The position numbers and the translations under genes are program-made. A stretch of 47,660 nt of DNA from Alicyclobacillus shizuokensis NBRC 103103 (GTDB lineage Bacteria; Bacillota; Bacilli; Alicyclobacillales; Alicyclobacillaceae): contig NZ_BCQV01000015.1 of NCBI RefSeq assembly GCF_001552255.1, positions 1 through 47,660 of the forward strand. Reading direction: 5' to 3'. Below the pieces are notes generated by a model that worked only from the letters and a program-made list of their open reading frames with translations, did not search any database and was not told the origin of the DNA. Shown one piece after another: positions 7,923 through 41,945 of the stretch. Position 1 is the first letter of the stretch. The number at the start of each line of letters is the position of its first letter.

Positions 7923-9302
7923 TCAGCACAGGGTGCGAATGGCCTCCGCCAACCGATTGACGGTGGTCTGGAGACTGGGATCATGCTGAAGACTTTGGCT
8001 GATCCGGTCGCAGGCGTGCAGTACCGTGGTGTGGTCGCGGCCGCCGAACTCCTCGCCGATGCGCGGTAGCGACAGTTCCGTCAGCTCGCGCGCCAAATAC
8101 ATGGCCAGCTGGCGCGGCAGCACAACATTCTTGGTGCGCCGCTTGGCCTTCAGCTCATCGACCTTGAGGCCAAAGTGATCACCAACCACCTTTTGGATCT
8201 GCGCGACAGTGATGGTGCGCTGCTTGTCCGGACGTATCATATCCTTGAGTGCTTGTTCTGCCAATTCGACGGTGATGTCCTGATTGACCAGCGACGAGTA
8301 CGCGATGACTCGAATCAGCGCGCCTTCCAGCTCGCGGATGTTGGAGTCGAACTGGGTGGCGATGTAGTAGTACACGTCGCTCGAGATATGCAGGCCGTCG
8401 GCTTTCGCTTTGCGCTGCAGGATGGCGACGCGGGTCTCCAGGTCAGGTGTCTGGATGTCGGTCAACAGGCCCCACTCAAAACGCGAGCGCAACCGGTCTT
8501 CCAGGGTCTGAATCTCCTTAGGCGGCCGGTCGCTGGAGATGACAATCTGTTTGCCGTTTTCGTGCAGGGTGTTGAACGTGTGGAAAAATTCTTCTTGTAT
8601 TCCTTCTTTTTTTGCGAGGAATTGAATATCGTCAATCAACAGGACGTCGATGGAGCGATAATGGTTGCGAAAGTCCCGGGTTGTGTTGTCGCGAATGGCG
8701 TGGATGAAGTCGTTGGTGAACCGCTCTGAGGTGATGTACAGCACCTTGGCCTGCGGGTGGTTCTGCTGCACGAAATGGCCAATGGCGTGCATCAGGTGGG
8801 TCTTTCCGAGACCTACGCCGCCGTAGATGAAGAGCGGATTGTAAGCGTTTGCGGGCGCTTCAGCGACGGCCAGGCAGGCGGCGTGTGCAAACCGGTTGCT
8901 GGCTCCGATGACAAACGTCTCAAAGGTGTAGCGGGGATTGAGACGAGTGGGCTCGGAGTTGGAAAACGTGGCTTCTTCTTCCTCTGCAGGTGGGATGGTT
9001 TGTCTCTGGCGAGCTTCCATGGTTGGCAGGTCCGGATTGGTGGTGAAGCGCAACATGAAGTCCTGGCCGGTGGCGGCCAGCAGCAGGTCGTGAATCTGAG
9101 TGGTGTAACGTTGCTCCAGCCAGCTGCGGGAAATTTCGGTTGGGCAGAGCACAGTGATAAGGTTCTTTTCCTCGTTGTAATCGATGATCTGCGTCTCGCC
9201 GAACCACGTGTCATAGCTGGGGCCGCTCATGGTGGACTGCATGTGCTCCAGAACGTGCTCCCAGGCGCGATTGAAAAAGTGGGCATCGTACTCGGAACTC
9301 AT
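7923..9302 (-). CDS. dnaA: Chromosomal replication initiator DnaA
   Basis: AAA+ initiator that binds DnaA boxes and melts oriC. 459 aa (B. subtilis 446). Domain I lies at about residues 1-85, a short linker follows, then domain III with Walker [11 protein letters not shown] near 160 and Walker B LLIDDIQF. Domain IV contains the DnaA signature [15 protein letters not shown] near the C-terminus. The ATG has GGGGAGG 12 bases upstream. It is flanked on both sides by DnaA-box clusters, which allows autoregulation. A weak -35/-10 pair (TTCACC/CATACT on minus) lies about 40-70 bases upstream, not firmly supported. Confidence 0.98.
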
Positions 9303-19597: not shown

Positions 19598-20365
19598 GTG
19601 GCCAGCGGGCGGATCATTGCAGTTGCGAATCAAAAAGGCGGGGTCGGCAAAACGACGACCGCGGTGAATCTAACGGCTTGCATGGCTGATTTGGGGAAGC
19701 GGGTGTTGTTGGTCGACATTGATCCACAGGGCAATTCGACCTCCGGCATCGGTGTGAATAAAGCGGACGTTCATTATTGTGTGTATGATGTCATCATCAA
19801 CGATGTGCCCGTGGAGCGGGCCATCTTGCGCAGCGACGTGCCGAATCTGTCTGTGCTGCCGGCCACCATTCAGTTGGCGGGCGCCGAAATCGAATTGGTG
19901 CCCACCATATCCCGGGAGGTGCGGCTGCGGCGGGCAGTGCAGCCGTTGCGTAAAGAGTACGACTACATCATCATTGATTGTCCGCCGTCGCTGGGGCTGT
20001 TGACCGTCAATGCGCTGACGGCGGCGGACTCGGTGCTCATCCCCATCCAGTGCGAGTATTACGCGCTGGAGGGACTGAGTCAGCTGTTGAACACCATTCG
20101 GCTCGTGCAGAAACACCTGAACACGTCACTGGAAGTGGAAGGGGTGTTGCTCACCATGCTTGATGCACGCACCAATCTGGGGATCCAGGTGATTGAGGAC
20201 GTCAAAAAGTACTTTCGCGACAAGGTTTATCATACGGTCATCCCGCGCAACGTCCGTTTGAGCGAAGCTCCGAGCCACGGCCGTCCCATCATTCACTACG
20301 ACGCCAAGTCCCGTGGGGCGGAGACGTACATGGACCTGGCCAGGGAAGTGATTGGCCTTGACTAA
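19598..20365 (+). CDS. parA: Chromosome partition ATPase ParA (Soj)
   Basis: Deviant-Walker ParA ATPase, 255 aa. The KGGVGKTTTAVNL Walker A' motif (signature Lys) is near residues 13-25, Walker A is followed by VDIDPQGN, and Walker B is YIIIDCPP. In Bacilli it drives origin segregation with ParB and also controls DnaA. GTG start with GAGGAGG 7 bases upstream. It overlaps parB by 14 bp. Confidence 0.97.
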   Translation: MASGRIIAVANQKGGVGKTTTAVNLTACMADLGKRVLLVDIDPQGNSTSGIGVNKADVHYCVYDVIINDVPVERAILRSDVPNLSVLPATIQLAGAEIELVPTISREVRLRRAVQPLRKEYDYIIIDCPPSLGLLTVNALTAADSVLIPIQCEYYALEGLSQLLNTIRLVQKHLNTSLEVEGVLLTMLDARTNLGIQVIEDVKKYFRDKVYHTVIPRNVRLSEAPSHGRPIIHYDAKSRGAETYMDLAREVIGLD

Positions 20366-21215
20366 GCAGCAGAAGGGTTTGGGGAAGGGATTGGGGGCGC
20401 TGCTCCCGGAGCTGAACATCTCGGAGCAGGACCAGGTGTCAACGGTCGCGATTCGAGACCTGAGGCCAAACCCATACCAGCCGCGCAGGGTGTTCGACGA
20501 GGATAAACTGGGTGAGTTGGCCCAGTCCATTCGCGAGCACGGGATCATTCAGCCGTTGATTGTCCGCCGCAGCCGCATCCGCGGCTACGATATTGTGGCT
20601 GGGGAGCGGCGGTTCCGGGCCGCCCAGATGGCCGGGCTGACGGACGTGCCGGCGGTGGTGCGTGAGTTTACCGATGTGCAGCTGATGGAGATAGCGGTCA
20701 TTGAGAACCTGCAGCGGGAGGATCTGAACGCGATTGAGATCTCGGAGGCGTACGCCAACCTGATTGAGAAGTGTCATCTGACGCAGGAACAGTTGGCCAA
20801 ACGGGTCGGTCAGAGCCGTTCCCACGTCGCCAACATGCTGCGCCTGTTGCAGCTTCCCGAGGAGGTGCGAGAGTTGGTTTCACGTGGAACATTGTCCATG
20901 GGACACGCCCGGGCGCTGTTGGCTGTACCCGATTCGAATCGGCAGGTGGAACTGGCTCGCCGGGTGGCCGCGGAGGATCTGAGCGTGCGGACTTTGGAAA
21001 CGCTCGTGTACCGTCCCACTGTTTCACGTGAAACAAGAAATAAAAAGCCGCTGCCAAGCCATTATAAGCGGTACGAAGAACAGTTCCGCGTTCGGCTGGG
21101 TACCTCTGTGCGCATACGGCCGGGCAAGAAGCGGGGGAAAATCGAGATCGACTACTTCTCGGACGAAGACCTCGAACGAATTCTCAGCCTGGTCGGAGCG
21201 GAAGGTGAATCCTGA
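20352..21215 (+). CDS. parB: Chromosome partition protein ParB (Spo0J)
   Basis: CTP-dependent clamp that loads at parS. 287 aa: N-terminal KGLGKGLGALLPE (ParA-activating peptide), CTP-binding region with HGIIQPLIVRR and VAGERRFRAAQ, HTH with VGQSRSHVANMLRLLQLP, and a C-terminal dimerisation domain. The start is TTG within the parA end; TTG 20352 is used, but TTG 20358 is equally near AGGGAAG. Two parS-like sites lie inside the gene, as in B. subtilis spo0J. Confidence 0.96.
   Translation: MALTKQQKGLGKGLGALLPELNISEQDQVSTVAIRDLRPNPYQPRRVFDEDKLGELAQSIREHGIIQPLIVRRSRIRGYDIVAGERRFRAAQMAGLTDVPAVVREFTDVQLMEIAVIENLQREDLNAIEISEAYANLIEKCHLTQEQLAKRVGQSRSHVANMLRLLQLPEEVRELVSRGTLSMGHARALLAVPDSNRQVELARRVAAEDLSVRTLETLVYRPTVSRETRNKKPLPSHYKRYEEQFRVRLGTSVRIRPGKKRGKIEIDYFSDEDLERILSLVGAEGES
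20876..20891. promoter_or_regulatory. parS: parS-like site 1 inside parB
   Basis: ggtttcacgtggaaca, whose reverse complement is TGTTCCACGTGAAACC. It has a single mismatch to the B. subtilis parS consensus TGTTNCACGTGAAACA. Confidence 0.8.
21020..21035. promoter_or_regulatory. parS: parS site 2 inside parB
   Basis: TGTTTCACGTGAAACA, a perfect 16-bp palindrome and exact parS consensus. It is the expected ParB loading site about 12 kb from oriC. Confidence 0.95.
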
Positions 21216-38372: not shown

Positions 38373-38852
38373 GTGCAGGTTGTGGTGGTTGCGGTGGGTA
38401 AGTTGAAGGAACGGTATCTGCGGGAGGCGCAGGCGGAGTACGCCAAGCGCCTTTCTGGTTATGTGCAGCTGCGGATTGAGGAAGTGGCGGATGAGCCGGC
38501 CCCTGAGGGTTCGGGGGAGGGCGAGCGGCTGCGTGTCCTGCGCGTGGAAGGAGAGCGGATGGTACGGCGGCTGCGCGACCGGGACGCGGTGGTGGCGTTG
38601 GACAGGCAGGGCGAGGCGTTGTCATCGGAGGCGTGGAGCCGTGCCTACCAGCGCCTGGCCGGAGGCGGGTACGGGAGGATAGTGTTTCTGATTGGCGGGT
38701 CGCATGGCTTGGATGCGTCCCTGCTGCAGCGCGCCCAGCTGTGTTGGAGTTTTGGTCCGCTGACCTTGCCGCATCCATTGGCACGCATTGTACTGTTGGA
38801 GCAACTCTATCGGGGCATTCGCATTGCGCGCGGGGAGCCCTATCATAAGTAG
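38373..38852 (+). CDS. rlmH: 23S rRNA pseudouridine1915 N3-methyltransferase RlmH
   Basis: 159 aa SPOUT-family methyltransferase. Core segments: VVAVGKLKERYLREAQAEYAKRL at the N-terminus, VVALDRQGEALSSEAWS, FLIGGSHGLD (SAM knot) and the conserved end RIARGEPYHK. GTG start 15 bp after htrA. It closes the wal-htrA-rlmH block. Confidence 0.97.
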   Translation: MQVVVVAVGKLKERYLREAQAEYAKRLSGYVQLRIEEVADEPAPEGSGEGERLRVLRVEGERMVRRLRDRDAVVALDRQGEALSSEAWSRAYQRLAGGGYGRIVFLIGGSHGLDASLLQRAQLCWSFGPLTLPHPLARIVLLEQLYRGIRIARGEPYHK

Positions 38853-39054
38853 ATTTCGGAGACGGGGAAACTCAGTAAGCTGGCGGGTTTGACCAGTGGC
38901 CTCCACGTCCTTGCTGCTTGGCCACCGGATGTACGCACGACACCGACCTGGGCGCGGCTGTGTTGGCTGTCCCAGGTTGGGTTATGGTTTGAAGGCTTCG
39001 AGTAGAATGAAGGGTCGCACTCGCTGGTTTATTCCGTGTCCCGACGAGTGTCAA

Positions 39055-39170
39055 GAGTTAAAGTTTAAGACTTACACTCTAAACTGTAGAGTTTAACGTT
39101 TGAACTGTAAAGTTTAAAGTTTAACCTAGTAGGATTCTGAGATTTAAAGTTTGAATTCTAACTTTCAAAG
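39055..39170. repeat. AT-rich iteron array, probable centromere (parC-like)
   Basis: A 115-bp stretch far richer in A+T than its surroundings holds copies of AGTTTAA or one-base variants at 39062-39068, 39079-39085 (minus strand), 39090-39096, 39098-39104 (variant), 39111-39117, 39118-39124 (directly abutting) and 39148-39154 (variant), plus a tttcaaag element near 39163-39170. The pair around 39080-39095 forms the inverted repeat taaact-gtag-agttta. Position directly upstream of a parM-type promoter suggests binding sites of the ParR-like protein. Confidence 0.75.
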
Positions 39171-39184
39171 CTTTTATTTGTACG

Positions 39185-39213
39185 TTGGCGTGTGGACGAG
39201 AATCTCCTATACT
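39185..39213 (+). promoter_or_regulatory. Promoter of the parM-parR operon
   Basis: TTGGCG (39185-39190), a 17-bp spacer and TATACT (39208-39213), just downstream of the iteron array, so a protein bound to the array could repress it. Confidence 0.7.
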
Positions 39214-39251
39214 GTGAAAGTAAGAACAGTGGGTTGGAGAGGGGAGCGCAC

Positions 39252-40460
39252 TTGGCCAAATCGGAAGCAGTGAGTACGACGATTGCATTGTCCGTGGACA
39301 ATGGCAGCAGCCACATCAAAGGCATCTACGACACACTCGAGAACGCCTTCATCTTCCCGAATGTGGTCTCTCAGCCCGTTGGGGAGCGGTTTCTCCTCAC
39401 CGAACAGGGGAACCCGCTGGACTTTCTCGACGTTCGCATCACGTCTCCCGCCATCACCAGTGAGCAGTACCGTCACGTCTACGTGGGCAACTTGGCCATC
39501 GGGGACGAAGGGGTCGTCCACGAGATTGTCGGGGACAAGGCGGCCCAGAAGAAGGCGCAGCGGCCGGAGACGATGGTCACGCTGCTGACGGGGGCGGCCT
39601 ACGCGGTCGCCCACAAGCACGAGGCGGACATTCGCGCCGGAGTGAAGCGCATCAAGGCGCACGTGTATCTCGGTACCGGTCTGCCGATCAGCGAGATCGC
39701 CAAGTTCCGGGCCGAGTTTGCCGCCAAGATCACCAGCGGGGTGCACTCCGTCACGTTCGTGACGACGCCGGTCTACAAGGGTGTGACCGTGGAATTGGAA
39801 TTCTCGCTCCCCGTCGACATCGGGATCGACGACGTCTCCGGCGTCTACGACATCGAAGCGACGTCAAACTCGCCGCTGTCGCACAAGGGGTTTGGCATCG
39901 CCGACGTGGGCGGCGTGGATATGGATATCGCTTTCTTCCGCCCCGGCCTGGAATTGGACCAGAGACACTCTGTGGGGACCAAAATCCACCTGAACGACGC
40001 GCTGGAAAGCATCCGCAACGAAGTGAACGCCGAAGGAGAAGAGCTCATCGCGAGCACAGCGGAACTGACCGACATGCTGGTGCATAAGGAATACGAGATC
40101 TACGCCGAAGGCAAAGTCGTGTTCGACATGACCAACCTGGTGAACCGGCACATGCGCATCCTGGCGGAAAAGGTGCTCAAGTCGGCGCGCAACGCGTGGA
40201 AGCACGTGCGCTACGCCAACGAGTTCTGGTTCATCGGTGGCGGGGCCATCGTGCTCCAGCCATGGATAGAAAAGTTGAACGCGGAACTGGGCCTACCGAT
40301 TCGCTTCGACGCGGCGGAATACAGTCAGTTCCGCAACGCGCGCGGCACCTTTCTTCTGCTCTCGCACGCCCTGGAAACCCTGCCGCAGGCCGCGGCCGCC
40401 GCAGAGCCGGAGGTAGAGCCAGTGGCCGCTGAGACCAAGGACGGGAAGGATGCGGATTGA
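39252..40460 (+). CDS. ParM/StbA/Alp-family actin-like ATPase
   Basis: 402 aa from TTG 39252, which has GAGAGGGGAG 5 bases upstream. Actin-fold motifs: phosphate-1 SVDNGSSHIKG (about 14-24), phosphate-2 ADVGGVDMD (about 217-225) and adenosine motif WFIGGGAIVL (about 326-335). The late FRNARGTFLL matches the NARG motif of the ParM/Alp family. The last 30 residues are acidic and Ala/Glu-rich. Such proteins form filaments that push plasmid copies apart. The stop overlaps the next start. Which Alp subgroup it belongs to cannot be told from sequence alone. Confidence 0.88.
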   Translation: MAKSEAVSTTIALSVDNGSSHIKGIYDTLENAFIFPNVVSQPVGERFLLTEQGNPLDFLDVRITSPAITSEQYRHVYVGNLAIGDEGVVHEIVGDKAAQKKAQRPETMVTLLTGAAYAVAHKHEADIRAGVKRIKAHVYLGTGLPISEIAKFRAEFAAKITSGVHSVTFVTTPVYKGVTVELEFSLPVDIGIDDVSGVYDIEATSNSPLSHKGFGIADVGGVDMDIAFFRPGLELDQRHSVGTKIHLNDALESIRNEVNAEGEELIASTAELTDMLVHKEYEIYAEGKVVFDMTNLVNRHMRILAEKVLKSARNAWKHVRYANEFWFIGGGAIVLQPWIEKLNAELGLPIRFDAAEYSQFRNARGTFLLLSHALETLPQAAAAAEPEVEPVAAETKDGKDAD

Positions 40461-41044
40461 AAAAGCGCCGCTCCACCGTCTACGTGCGTCCTGGCAAGGA
40501 CATCACGCTCTATGTCCCGGCCGAAACGCCACCCGAGGTCATTGACTACCTGAACCGGCTCAAGGATGAGGGCAACTTCAGCCAGGGTGTCGTCGACATC
40601 ATCACGGAATACGTGACCACTCACCTGGGGCGCCAGCAGCTGAACGCCGCGGCGCCCAGCCCGCAGGCGCCGTCGGCCCAGGCTCATTCGTACCCGGCGA
40701 CCGCCGCTCCGGCGGTGAACGCAAACGCCGCGGCCACGGCTGACAACGACGAGACGGCCACCAACGACGTCGGCGAATCCGAGTCCGGCGCGCCGCATTC
40801 TGCCACAGCCGAAACAGCCAGGACTGCCGCATCTGCGGATGAGGATGGCCGGGGTGAGCCGGCCGCCTCCGCCGCCCGGCTGGACGCGCCTGGATCTGCT
40901 GCGGAGTCTGCGCCCCCCACTTCAGCTTCAGCTGGGCCGGCGACGGAAGCCCCGGCATCACCGGCCCCGGAACGAAAAAAGCTGAGCCTGGCGCAGATTT
41001 TCCGCCAGGCCCAGCGCAACGCCGGCCGATTGACCGACGGGTAG
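40457..41044 (+). CDS. ParR-like centromere-binding adaptor
   Basis: 195 aa; the TTG start overlaps the parM-like stop. The N-terminal 60 residues (DITLYVPAETPPEVIDYLNRLK ... FSQGVVDIITEYVTTHL) look like a ribbon-helix-helix unit: a strand followed by two helices. Residues about 65-165 are a low-complexity Ala/Glu/Pro linker. The last 25 residues form a basic amphipathic stretch (RKKLSLAQIFRQAQRNAGRL). ParR proteins bind parC with an RHH domain and the filament end with a C-terminal helix; the same division is inferred here. Confidence 0.75.
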   Translation: MKKRRSTVYVRPGKDITLYVPAETPPEVIDYLNRLKDEGNFSQGVVDIITEYVTTHLGRQQLNAAAPSPQAPSAQAHSYPATAAPAVNANAAATADNDETATNDVGESESGAPHSATAETARTAASADEDGRGEPAASAARLDAPGSAAESAPPTSASAGPATEAPASPAPERKKLSLAQIFRQAQRNAGRLTDG

Positions 41045-41087
41045 AGTCGCATTGGCTTCGCGTTGCGGCCGTAGCTCTGCCCGCGGC

Positions 41088-41945
41088 TCAATGTCGTTCG
41101 GCCAGGTAATGGAGTTCCTCCGCAATCGCCTGTTTCTCGTCCGCGGACAGGATGCGGCTGGCCATCGGGAACAGGTGGCTGTCCTCCTTGCCCAGGTGAT
41201 TGAGCAGCGCCAGGGACAGCTCCTCGACCTTGCTCTCCAGCAGGGACTGCAGGTGGGCATCGGGCTCTTGCTGCAACGCGTTCAGCAGATTCTCCGCTTC
41301 CCCGTGCAGACGGCGAATGTGCGCGTGTTCTTCCATCAGCCCCGCCACCGGCCCCACGTCGGCCCCTCCTACATGGCTGGCCACGCGCGGGAACACGACC
41401 TCCTCCTCGGCGGGGAAGTGGCGGCAGAGTTCCCCCGCGACGGCCTGCAGGGCGCGGCGAATGTCTGCCACTGACGGTTTTTCGCCCAGTCCAAGCAGGA
41501 CTTTGCATAGGCTGATGTGGTCCTCCACCAGAGACCGCAGCTCCGGGGCAATCTGCTGGATCCATTCCGGATGCTGATAGGCGTTGTCTTGCTCCAATTC
41601 ACGGTCAAATACCCGTCCACGGTCAGCTACCCGCGCGCTGGTGTCGGCGTCTGCGCCGGCTTCGGGGGAGAGCACCAGCAAGACGACGCTGGTCGTCAAC
41701 GCCTCGACGGCGTGTTCCACGCCGGCGCCCACCGTGAGCAGGCACGGGGCTACCAAGGTCCGTTCTTCCTCTTCCATCGTGAAACGGATTTCGCCGGACA
41801 CGACAATGACCGTCAACGCGAAGGGTGTCCGGTGTTGAATCAGTTCTTCTCCCGGCCGCAACGACAGTTGGACAAACTTCGCCTGTCCGTGCTGCAGCAG
41901 GCTCTCTACCTGCTTGTCCCGGAAGGCAAGGGATACCCTTTGCAT
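41088..41945 (-). CDS. Cupin-hemerythrin (HHE) two-domain protein
   Basis: 285 aa from ATG 41945 with AGGAGG 8 bases upstream. Residues about 1-100 form a cupin-like barrel (SLRPGEELIQHRTPFALTVIVVSGEIRF). Residues about 125-285 are a hemerythrin-like helical bundle with candidate di-iron ligands VEDHISL, LCRHFPAEEEVVFP, MEEHAHIRRLH and LLNHLGKEDSHLFPMA. Possible roles are O2/NO sensing or iron-centre protection. Last gene of a doxX-usp-usp-hemerythrin series. The combination of both domains is noteworthy. Confidence 0.8.
   Translation of the reverse strand: MQRVSLAFRDKQVESLLQHGQAKFVQLSLRPGEELIQHRTPFALTVIVVSGEIRFTMEEEERTLVAPCLLTVGAGVEHAVEALTTSVVLLVLSPEAGADADTSARVADRGRVFDRELEQDNAYQHPEWIQQIAPELRSLVEDHISLCKVLLGLGEKPSVADIRRALQAVAGELCRHFPAEEEVVFPRVASHVGGADVGPVAGLMEEHAHIRRLHGEAENLLNALQQEPDAHLQSLLESKVEELSLALLNHLGKEDSHLFPMASRILSADEKQAIAEELHYLAERH

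Follow-up and report, generated by a model that had tools for sequence, protein, structure and literature searches.

An actin-type partition cassette in the origin region

The window, by which we mean the whole analysed stretch of 47,660 nucleotides of contig NZ_BCQV01000015.1 of Alicyclobacillus shizuokensis NBRC 103103, carries at positions 39051–41044 a repeat array, a promoter, a gene for a ParM/Alp-type ATPase and an overlapping parR-like gene in sequence, as had been proposed in a sequence-only reading of this DNA. The parC-like array (39051–39173, strandless, delimited as an HMM segment) comprises about 15 unspaced 7-bp heptads with the consensus AAASTTT in two phased blocks. A sigma-A-type promoter, TTGGCG-17-TATACT (39185–39213, forward strand), begins 12 bp past the array end and is followed by the parM-like gene for an actin ATPase of 402 amino acids with a TTG start (39252–40460, forward strand) and by the parR-like gene for an adaptor of 195 amino acids (40457–41044, forward strand), whose N-terminal domain is RHH-like by reading. 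The upstream neighbour rlmH (38373–38852, forward strand, named from its protein sequence and given as context only) ends with its stop codon at 38852, and the cassette lies directly after it in the window as described before. The dnaA gene (7923–9302, reverse strand, likewise named from its protein sequence) marks the origin region, and the distance to it, put at about 30 kb by the earlier reading, measures 29.9 kb. The parA-parB pair (19598–21215, forward strand), which has parS-like sites at positions 20876 and 21020, represents the ordinary chromosomal ParABS system; the end of parB at 21215 lies about 18 kb before the array, again in agreement with the reading. Rfam models gave nothing at the gathering threshold within 38800–41300.

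The cassette-bearing contig encodes gyrA, gyrB, recF, dnaN, dnaA, parA, parB and wal genes (names assigned from the proteins), its origin gene order is the same as in four other genomes, and the contig looks chromosomal. A misassembly at 38.9 kb, raised earlier as a possible objection, is very unlikely because Alicyclobacillus kakegawensis (L031) shares the neighbours on either side (htrA-rlmH, parM-parR, usp and a doxX-like gene) and because parM lies 1.9–3.2 kb downstream of rlmH in three further assemblies (L032–L034). The sequence-only reading had not included the build of the array from heptads, the existence of a sister family with units of 8 bp or a tectivirus-like contig sharing the array; all three were found here and are described below.

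A phased heptad array precedes parM

The array had been described as one of iterons. It is indeed an array, but its units are contiguous 7-bp heptads: ten in-phase units at 39053–39122 are followed by a phase break and five more units at 39139–39173. The longest in-phase run spans six units when at most one mismatch per unit to RAANBTT is allowed; 5000 mononucleotide shuffles of the stretch reached at most four. It is the sole run of at least four on the forward strand of the window. The array thus contains an uninterrupted series of at least four 7-bp repeats.

When the upstream stretches were pooled over 34 loci, their autocorrelation peaked at 7, 14, 21, 28 and 35 bp (z 14–24), and an array HMM, trained and tested on the same 34 upstream stretches, has the palindromic consensus AAASTTT and detects an array before parM in all 34 of them. 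When the 47.7-kb window and 33 flanks of 10–13 kb each were scanned with this HMM, arrays appeared solely upstream of parM, with the exception of one 22-bit site in L053, and 430 kb of mononucleotide-shuffled flanks returned no match above 15 bits. The largest array blocks measure 65–143 bp, corresponding to about 9–20 units. Across the loci the base sequence varies and the 7-bp period is kept, which is the behaviour one would expect of protein-binding sites set in a row. A simple heptamer microsatellite was rejected as an explanation, as the repeats of the cassette are imperfect and invariably precede parM. More than one heptad block precedes parM in L034, and in L121 (G004:C1:3844276-3847393) heptad blocks extend over about 3 kb upstream of the gene. 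AAAGTTT-like heptamer tandem repeats, some of them very long, were also seen in the IMG/VR viral contigs L068, L075, L085 and L090. Two promoter-like sites were found in the region compared to 0.4 expected, and many relatives show an AATCT-(TATA-like) stretch before parM when inspected by eye.

The ATPase belongs to the ParM/Alp family

The listed open reading frame of parM began with GTG at 39192. We place the start at TTG 39252, which matches a start position conserved in relatives; a Shine-Dalgarno-like AGGGGAG was noticed by eye at 39240–39246. A profile search of the protein, suggested by the sequence-only reading, matched ParM/Alp domains: the Pfam families Alp7A_like_C, MreB-like_C and ALP_N all scored above their cut-offs (PF22128 with 40.4 bits at a cut-off of 22; PF17989 with 27.9 at 26.3), and phrog_691, annotated as 'partition protein', matched at 1.4e-24. 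The ParM equivalog NF010498 scored 19.6, far under its cut-off of 417. All three nucleotide motifs that had been claimed for the ATPase were found and are invariant among 24 aligned members, namely D16-N17-G18, D218-G220-G221 and G329-G330-G331, which we take to be the phosphate-1, phosphate-2 and adenosine motifs, respectively.

A sequence search of the PDB at E ≤ 1 yielded Dh-cParM1 (8x1i, E 2.8e-4) as the single match to the window's ParM, and the profile of the 24-member family matched no PDB chain at E ≤ 0.01; hence, the family is distant by sequence from the solved ParMs. The AlphaFold2 model of the protein is weak (pLDDT 62). Comparison of this weak model by Foldseek gave a TM of about 0.37 with BtParM (E 9.8e-11), and ParM/Alp chains topped a further fold comparison of the same weak model, led by BtParM (Z 15.2, rmsd 7.8, 301 residues aligned), Alp7A (Z 12.1, rmsd 7.7, 264 aligned) and 8x1i (Z 11.6, rmsd 8.2, 264 aligned). 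The CorM filament structure 9rmi was among the matches (Z 10.0, rmsd 7.7, 262 aligned), and sugar kinases ranked behind the ParM/Alp chains at a Z of about 9. By these profile and model comparisons the protein qualifies as a ParM/Alp-type actin ATPase with a predicted actin-like fold. The parM gene of the Gordonibacillus locus L061 contains an apparent frameshift, either real or an assembly error.

An overlapping gene encodes a ParR-like adaptor

The adaptor gene adjoins parM in the same direction, and in the window it overlaps the parM stop codon by the 4 bp TTGA. Such a 4-bp NTGA overlap is shared by 33 of 34 loci and missing only in L061 with its apparently frameshifted parM. In the adaptor, a conserved N-terminal part of about 55 residues is joined by a variable linker to a C-terminal helix that is conserved as well. 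The previous claim of an overlapping ParR-like RHH protein stands for the gene; HMM searches and a Foldseek search of the ParR model gave no match. The putative RHH fold rests on two helices predicted at residues 26–37 and 41–64 and a beta-helix-helix pattern recognized by reading, so that we describe the N-terminal domain as RHH-like in this sense. In the A. ferrooxydans locus L062 the C-terminus of ParR diverges, and the end of parR shows an apparent frameshift, which is real or an assembly error.

The cassette is conserved but patchily distributed

A scan with one genome per species recovered 33 loci of close relatives in Alicyclobacillus, Paenibacillus and Gordonibacillus, whose ParM proteins are 74–98% identical to that of the window. 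The cassette occurs in 9 of 61 genomes (own genome included), with the sister family in 5 others, and in 24 of 104 genomes of the Paenibacillus V4I3 group; this patchy distribution means that related species live without it. Many genomes of the V4I3 group contain a second ParM of about 27% identity (e.g. G075:C1:1948991-1950022), which mostly lies far from dnaA where measured.

In the Paenibacillaceae loci the identity to the window at fourfold sites is 24–51% at a ParM protein identity of 74–85%, and the DnaA identity in the same comparison is 56–60%. The difference between 74–98% amino-acid identity and 24–51% fourfold-site identity is indicative of purifying selection. A recent transfer between the families was rejected because we judged a fourfold-site identity of 24–51% to be near saturation, a judgement made without a computed expected value. 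Fourfold-site identity to the window is higher for P. flagellatus (51%) than for A. herbarius (45%), the Alicyclobacillus rows of the tree have no resolved base, and an older transfer involving P. flagellatus may have taken place. Among 72,556 plasmid records only 26 match the window's ParM, all under 60% identity, and no ParM match was found among 50,697 phage records.

The position after rlmH, whose conservation the sequence-only reading had proposed to check, is not a general feature: rlmH is nearby in 4 of the 33 relatives' loci, directly adjacent in one of these four, and only some Alicyclobacillus have it close to the cassette. Staphylococci have an integration site at the 3′ end of rlmH, which is why an SCC-like insertion was considered; as a general account it was rejected, since 29 of the 33 loci lack rlmH within the flank examined. 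The flanking genes of the 33 loci fall into 14 unlinked contexts, of which, by our own tally, 10 have a measured dnaA distance. In 22 of the 33 loci (e.g. L034, 8738–9202, and L053, 7669–8127) parR is followed, immediately or at a short distance, by the gene of a small winged-helix protein (HTH_36), which had no match in the window's own genome. Since homologues of 53–70% identity exist in genomes without a window-type ParM (G009, G011, G028), this third gene is optional.

A sister family uses 8-bp units

Five genomes (G009, G013, G023, G035 and G036; loci L010–L014) encode a sister ParM family that is 44–46% identical to the window's ParM. Its cassettes likewise contain a ParR-like gene, 35–40% identical in the matched part, and an upstream array of short units. 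These arrays showed an 8-bp period in the five loci seen, with pooled lags of 8, 16 and 24 at z 8.6–10.1; lags 4 and 12 were raised too, and lag 12 was best in L013. More distant ParMs of 24–31% identity are found on the 26 plasmid records, and 16 distant ParM loci in the same identity range (L015–L030) showed no heptads above 15 bits.

The cassette lies close to dnaA

We searched for dnaA in 38 distinct cassette-bearing genomes, counting entries with identical coordinates once. In 26 of these it lies on the parM contig, in all cases at 30–145 kb from the cassette; the other 12 have dnaA on another contig and thus fall outside the distance count. Since the requirement for a single contig favours short distances, the seven genomes with contigs of at least 4.9 Mb form a fairer subset. 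All seven have the cassette within 104 kb of dnaA, at 76 (G004), 36 (G066), 104 (G071), 68 (G075), 65 (G098), 86 (G110, contig taken as circular) and 72 kb (G125). The chance of a random site being equally close is 0.014–0.042 per genome, to be read with the relatedness of the seven genomes in mind. As a control, the distant ParMs of 11 genomes lie 168–1414 kb from dnaA, ten of them at 401 kb or more (168 kb in G093, 401 kb in G011, and 490, 766, 873, 933, 935, 1151, 1258, 1315 and 1414 kb; the contigs of G110, G118 and G166 were taken as circular); the case of G093 illustrates that such nearness also arises outside the window's family. For the sister family, distances of 36 kb (G013), 60 kb (G009) and 548 kb (G036) were measured.

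In 24 of the 26 genomes the cassette points away from dnaA and is found on one and the same side of it, the side being taken from gene order for four genomes and from dnaA orientation for the rest. Inherited synteny may hence account for some of the proximity. The two exceptions are A. mengziensis (G066) and G004, whose cassette is located on the gyrA side, i.e. the opposite replichore, and points towards dnaA, which amounts at best to one switching event in one genus. The chief rival to selection for proximity is inherited synteny with local turnover, which may well apply to Paenibacillus.

The array is nearly unique in each genome and recurs on tectivirus-like contigs

A four-heptad pattern with at most two mismatches was searched in 28 genomes, 19 with and 9 without the cassette. 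Sites of this pattern are present at the cassette in 19 of 19 cassette-bearing genomes, with a single site in G001, G004 and G015, and isolated sites elsewhere were found in five of them (G001, G004, G069, G070 and G075). The nine genomes without the cassette contained a CCTTAAA-like run (G168), two overlapping sites (G163), two isolated sites (G124) and none in the other six. The heptad array is therefore nearly unique in each genome scanned. A reversed-pattern control gave 0–4 matches per strand and is weak, since the array read backwards resembles itself.

In 2 of the 19 cassette-bearing genomes heptads are also present on a tectivirus-like contig. One is contig C66 of the window's own genome (G000:C66; L064, 1–11264), the other contig C36 of A. 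kakegawensis (G002:C36; L096, 1–16197); each has 6–7 heptads (57 and 73 bits, respectively), located after a gene stop codon about 260 bp from one contig end. The packaging-type ATPase of C66 (phrog_2666, 1e-22) has 25% identity to a protein from a Lysinibacillus phage of 13.8 kb; the contig further encodes a family B DNA polymerase (PF03175, 6e-7) and a protein of 406 amino acids that matches no family and may be a capsid protein. Relatives of all three proteins are encoded on C36. From this gene content we infer that both contigs are tectivirus-like, and they are presumably extrachromosomal. Neither contains a convincing parM or parR (best tblastn E values 0.03 and 0.75), and no integrase-like open reading frame was noticed by eye. 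Related elements in G009 (capsid-like protein 40% identical) and G031 (25%) are devoid of heptads; the host of the G009 element carries a sister ParM, and the element itself has no TTAAGT octads. A search of IMG/VR with the capsid-like protein returned no relative.

A possible second segregation system for the origin

The sequence-only reading had offered a captured plasmid module, a second segregation motor for oriC and a filament recruited for another task as explanations. Of these, the second segregation motor is the best fit, since different genera retain the nearness to the origin despite differing neighbours. Capture of a plasmid module as a recent event is weakened by the finding of no plasmid copy above 60% identity and by the fourfold-site identity of 24–51% to the Paenibacillaceae copies. 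We give an even chance to the view that this chromosomal ParMRC-type cassette works on the origin region as a second system beside ParABS, driven by an actin. By analogy to characterized partition systems, ParR dimers would probably coat the heptad array, each dimer occupying one 7-bp unit, and would capture the ends of ParM filaments with their C-terminal helices. Growth or shrinkage of these filaments could then move, separate or anchor sister origins, perhaps in certain cells, for instance large or sporulating ones. Since the array is nearly the sole one in the genome and lies near oriC, the force of such a filament would act on the origin region. A wider version, to which we hold only tentatively, is that Alicyclobacillus and the Paenibacillus group segregate or anchor the origin by an actin system with a single heptad centromere, and that tectivirus-like elements copy this centromere to ride the host machine.

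The same contigs could be taken to mean that the cassette serves or controls extrachromosomal elements, either by partitioning heptad carriers or with the chromosomal array as an incompatibility decoy. That C66 and C36 carry heptads without a convincing parM or parR and without a noticed integrase-like gene speaks for such a role; yet only 2 of 19 cassette-bearing genomes scanned have such a contig, the related elements in G009 and G031 lack heptads and that of G009 also lacks octads, the extrachromosomal state of C66 and C36 is itself presumed, and the lasting origin proximity would be left unexplained. We consider this role unlikely. Somewhat less probable still, in our view, is a filament recruited as a cytoskeleton for another task, with the array as a mere self-repression operator. 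Cyanobacterial CorM/CorR is a filament recruited in this way, and the CorM structure is among the fold matches of the window's ParM. The array also adjoins the parM promoter as an operator might, but with blocks of 65–143 bp it is, in our judgement, longer than a usual operator, it ends before the -35 box in the window and 74–244 bp before parM in relatives, and in the virus-like contigs it sits after a gene stop codon.

A decaying remnant of an integrated plasmid without present function could account for the patchy distribution and for the distant ParMs on plasmid records. It is very improbable given that amino-acid identity stays at 74–98% where fourfold-site identity drops to as low as 24%, that the heptad period is kept in 34 of 34 loci and that no plasmid copy above 60% identity was found. 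The proposed second, actin-driven origin system is directly testable, as named isolates offer a conserved actin cassette near the origin that has a single centromere-like array. The heptad array provides a defined binding substrate and the sister family with its 8-bp units a natural comparison of adaptor and repeat. The virus-like contigs hint that a host centromere may be exploited by parasites.

Comparison with known partition systems

Chromosomal ParMR is already known as a kind: the chromosome-encoded Dh-cParM1 of Desulfitobacterium (PDB 8x1i) and Cb-cParM were published in 2025, and the main text of that report describes chromosomal ParMs as strongly conserved within a genus with an unknown role in the cell (PMC12270681). 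The window resembles these systems in combining a protein of the ParM-type filament family with a ParR on the chromosome, but sequence identity of its ParM to Dh-cParM1 is low. Cb-cparC is described as three palindromic repeats, and the main text mentions neither Paenibacillus, Alicyclobacillus, rlmH nor heptads, its one occurrence of 'oriC' being in a reference title (PMC12270681). With Alp7A, BtParM and the ParMs of Firmicute plasmids the window's ParM shares the Alp7A_like_C domain and the closest fold scores; these are plasmid-borne, however, and the plasmid ParMs found are just 24–31% identical to it. A plasmid parM described in A. acidoterrestris is, judging from the main text, not of the window's family (PMC9713406). 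Searches of open-licence main texts in PMC yielded no report of this ParM family, its heptads, its origin proximity or a virus-like carrier.

In the ParMRC system a ParR helix assembled on parC presents its C-terminal tails to ParM, as outlined in the text of PMC5016525. In repeat layout the array resembles the centromere of the pSM19035 omega/ParB system, in which, according to the main text of PMC9499535, 7–10 repeats of 7 bp follow one another, a single RHH dimer binds to each, and four or more contiguous repeats are needed. The window's array shares the contiguous 7-bp units. Unlike the window with its actin ATPase and palindromic AAASTTT, omega uses a ParA ATPase and non-palindromic WATCACW, and ParR and omega are likened here by repeat layout, not by sequence relation. 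Hence, the heptad array may work like an omega-type centromere but is not a member of that family.
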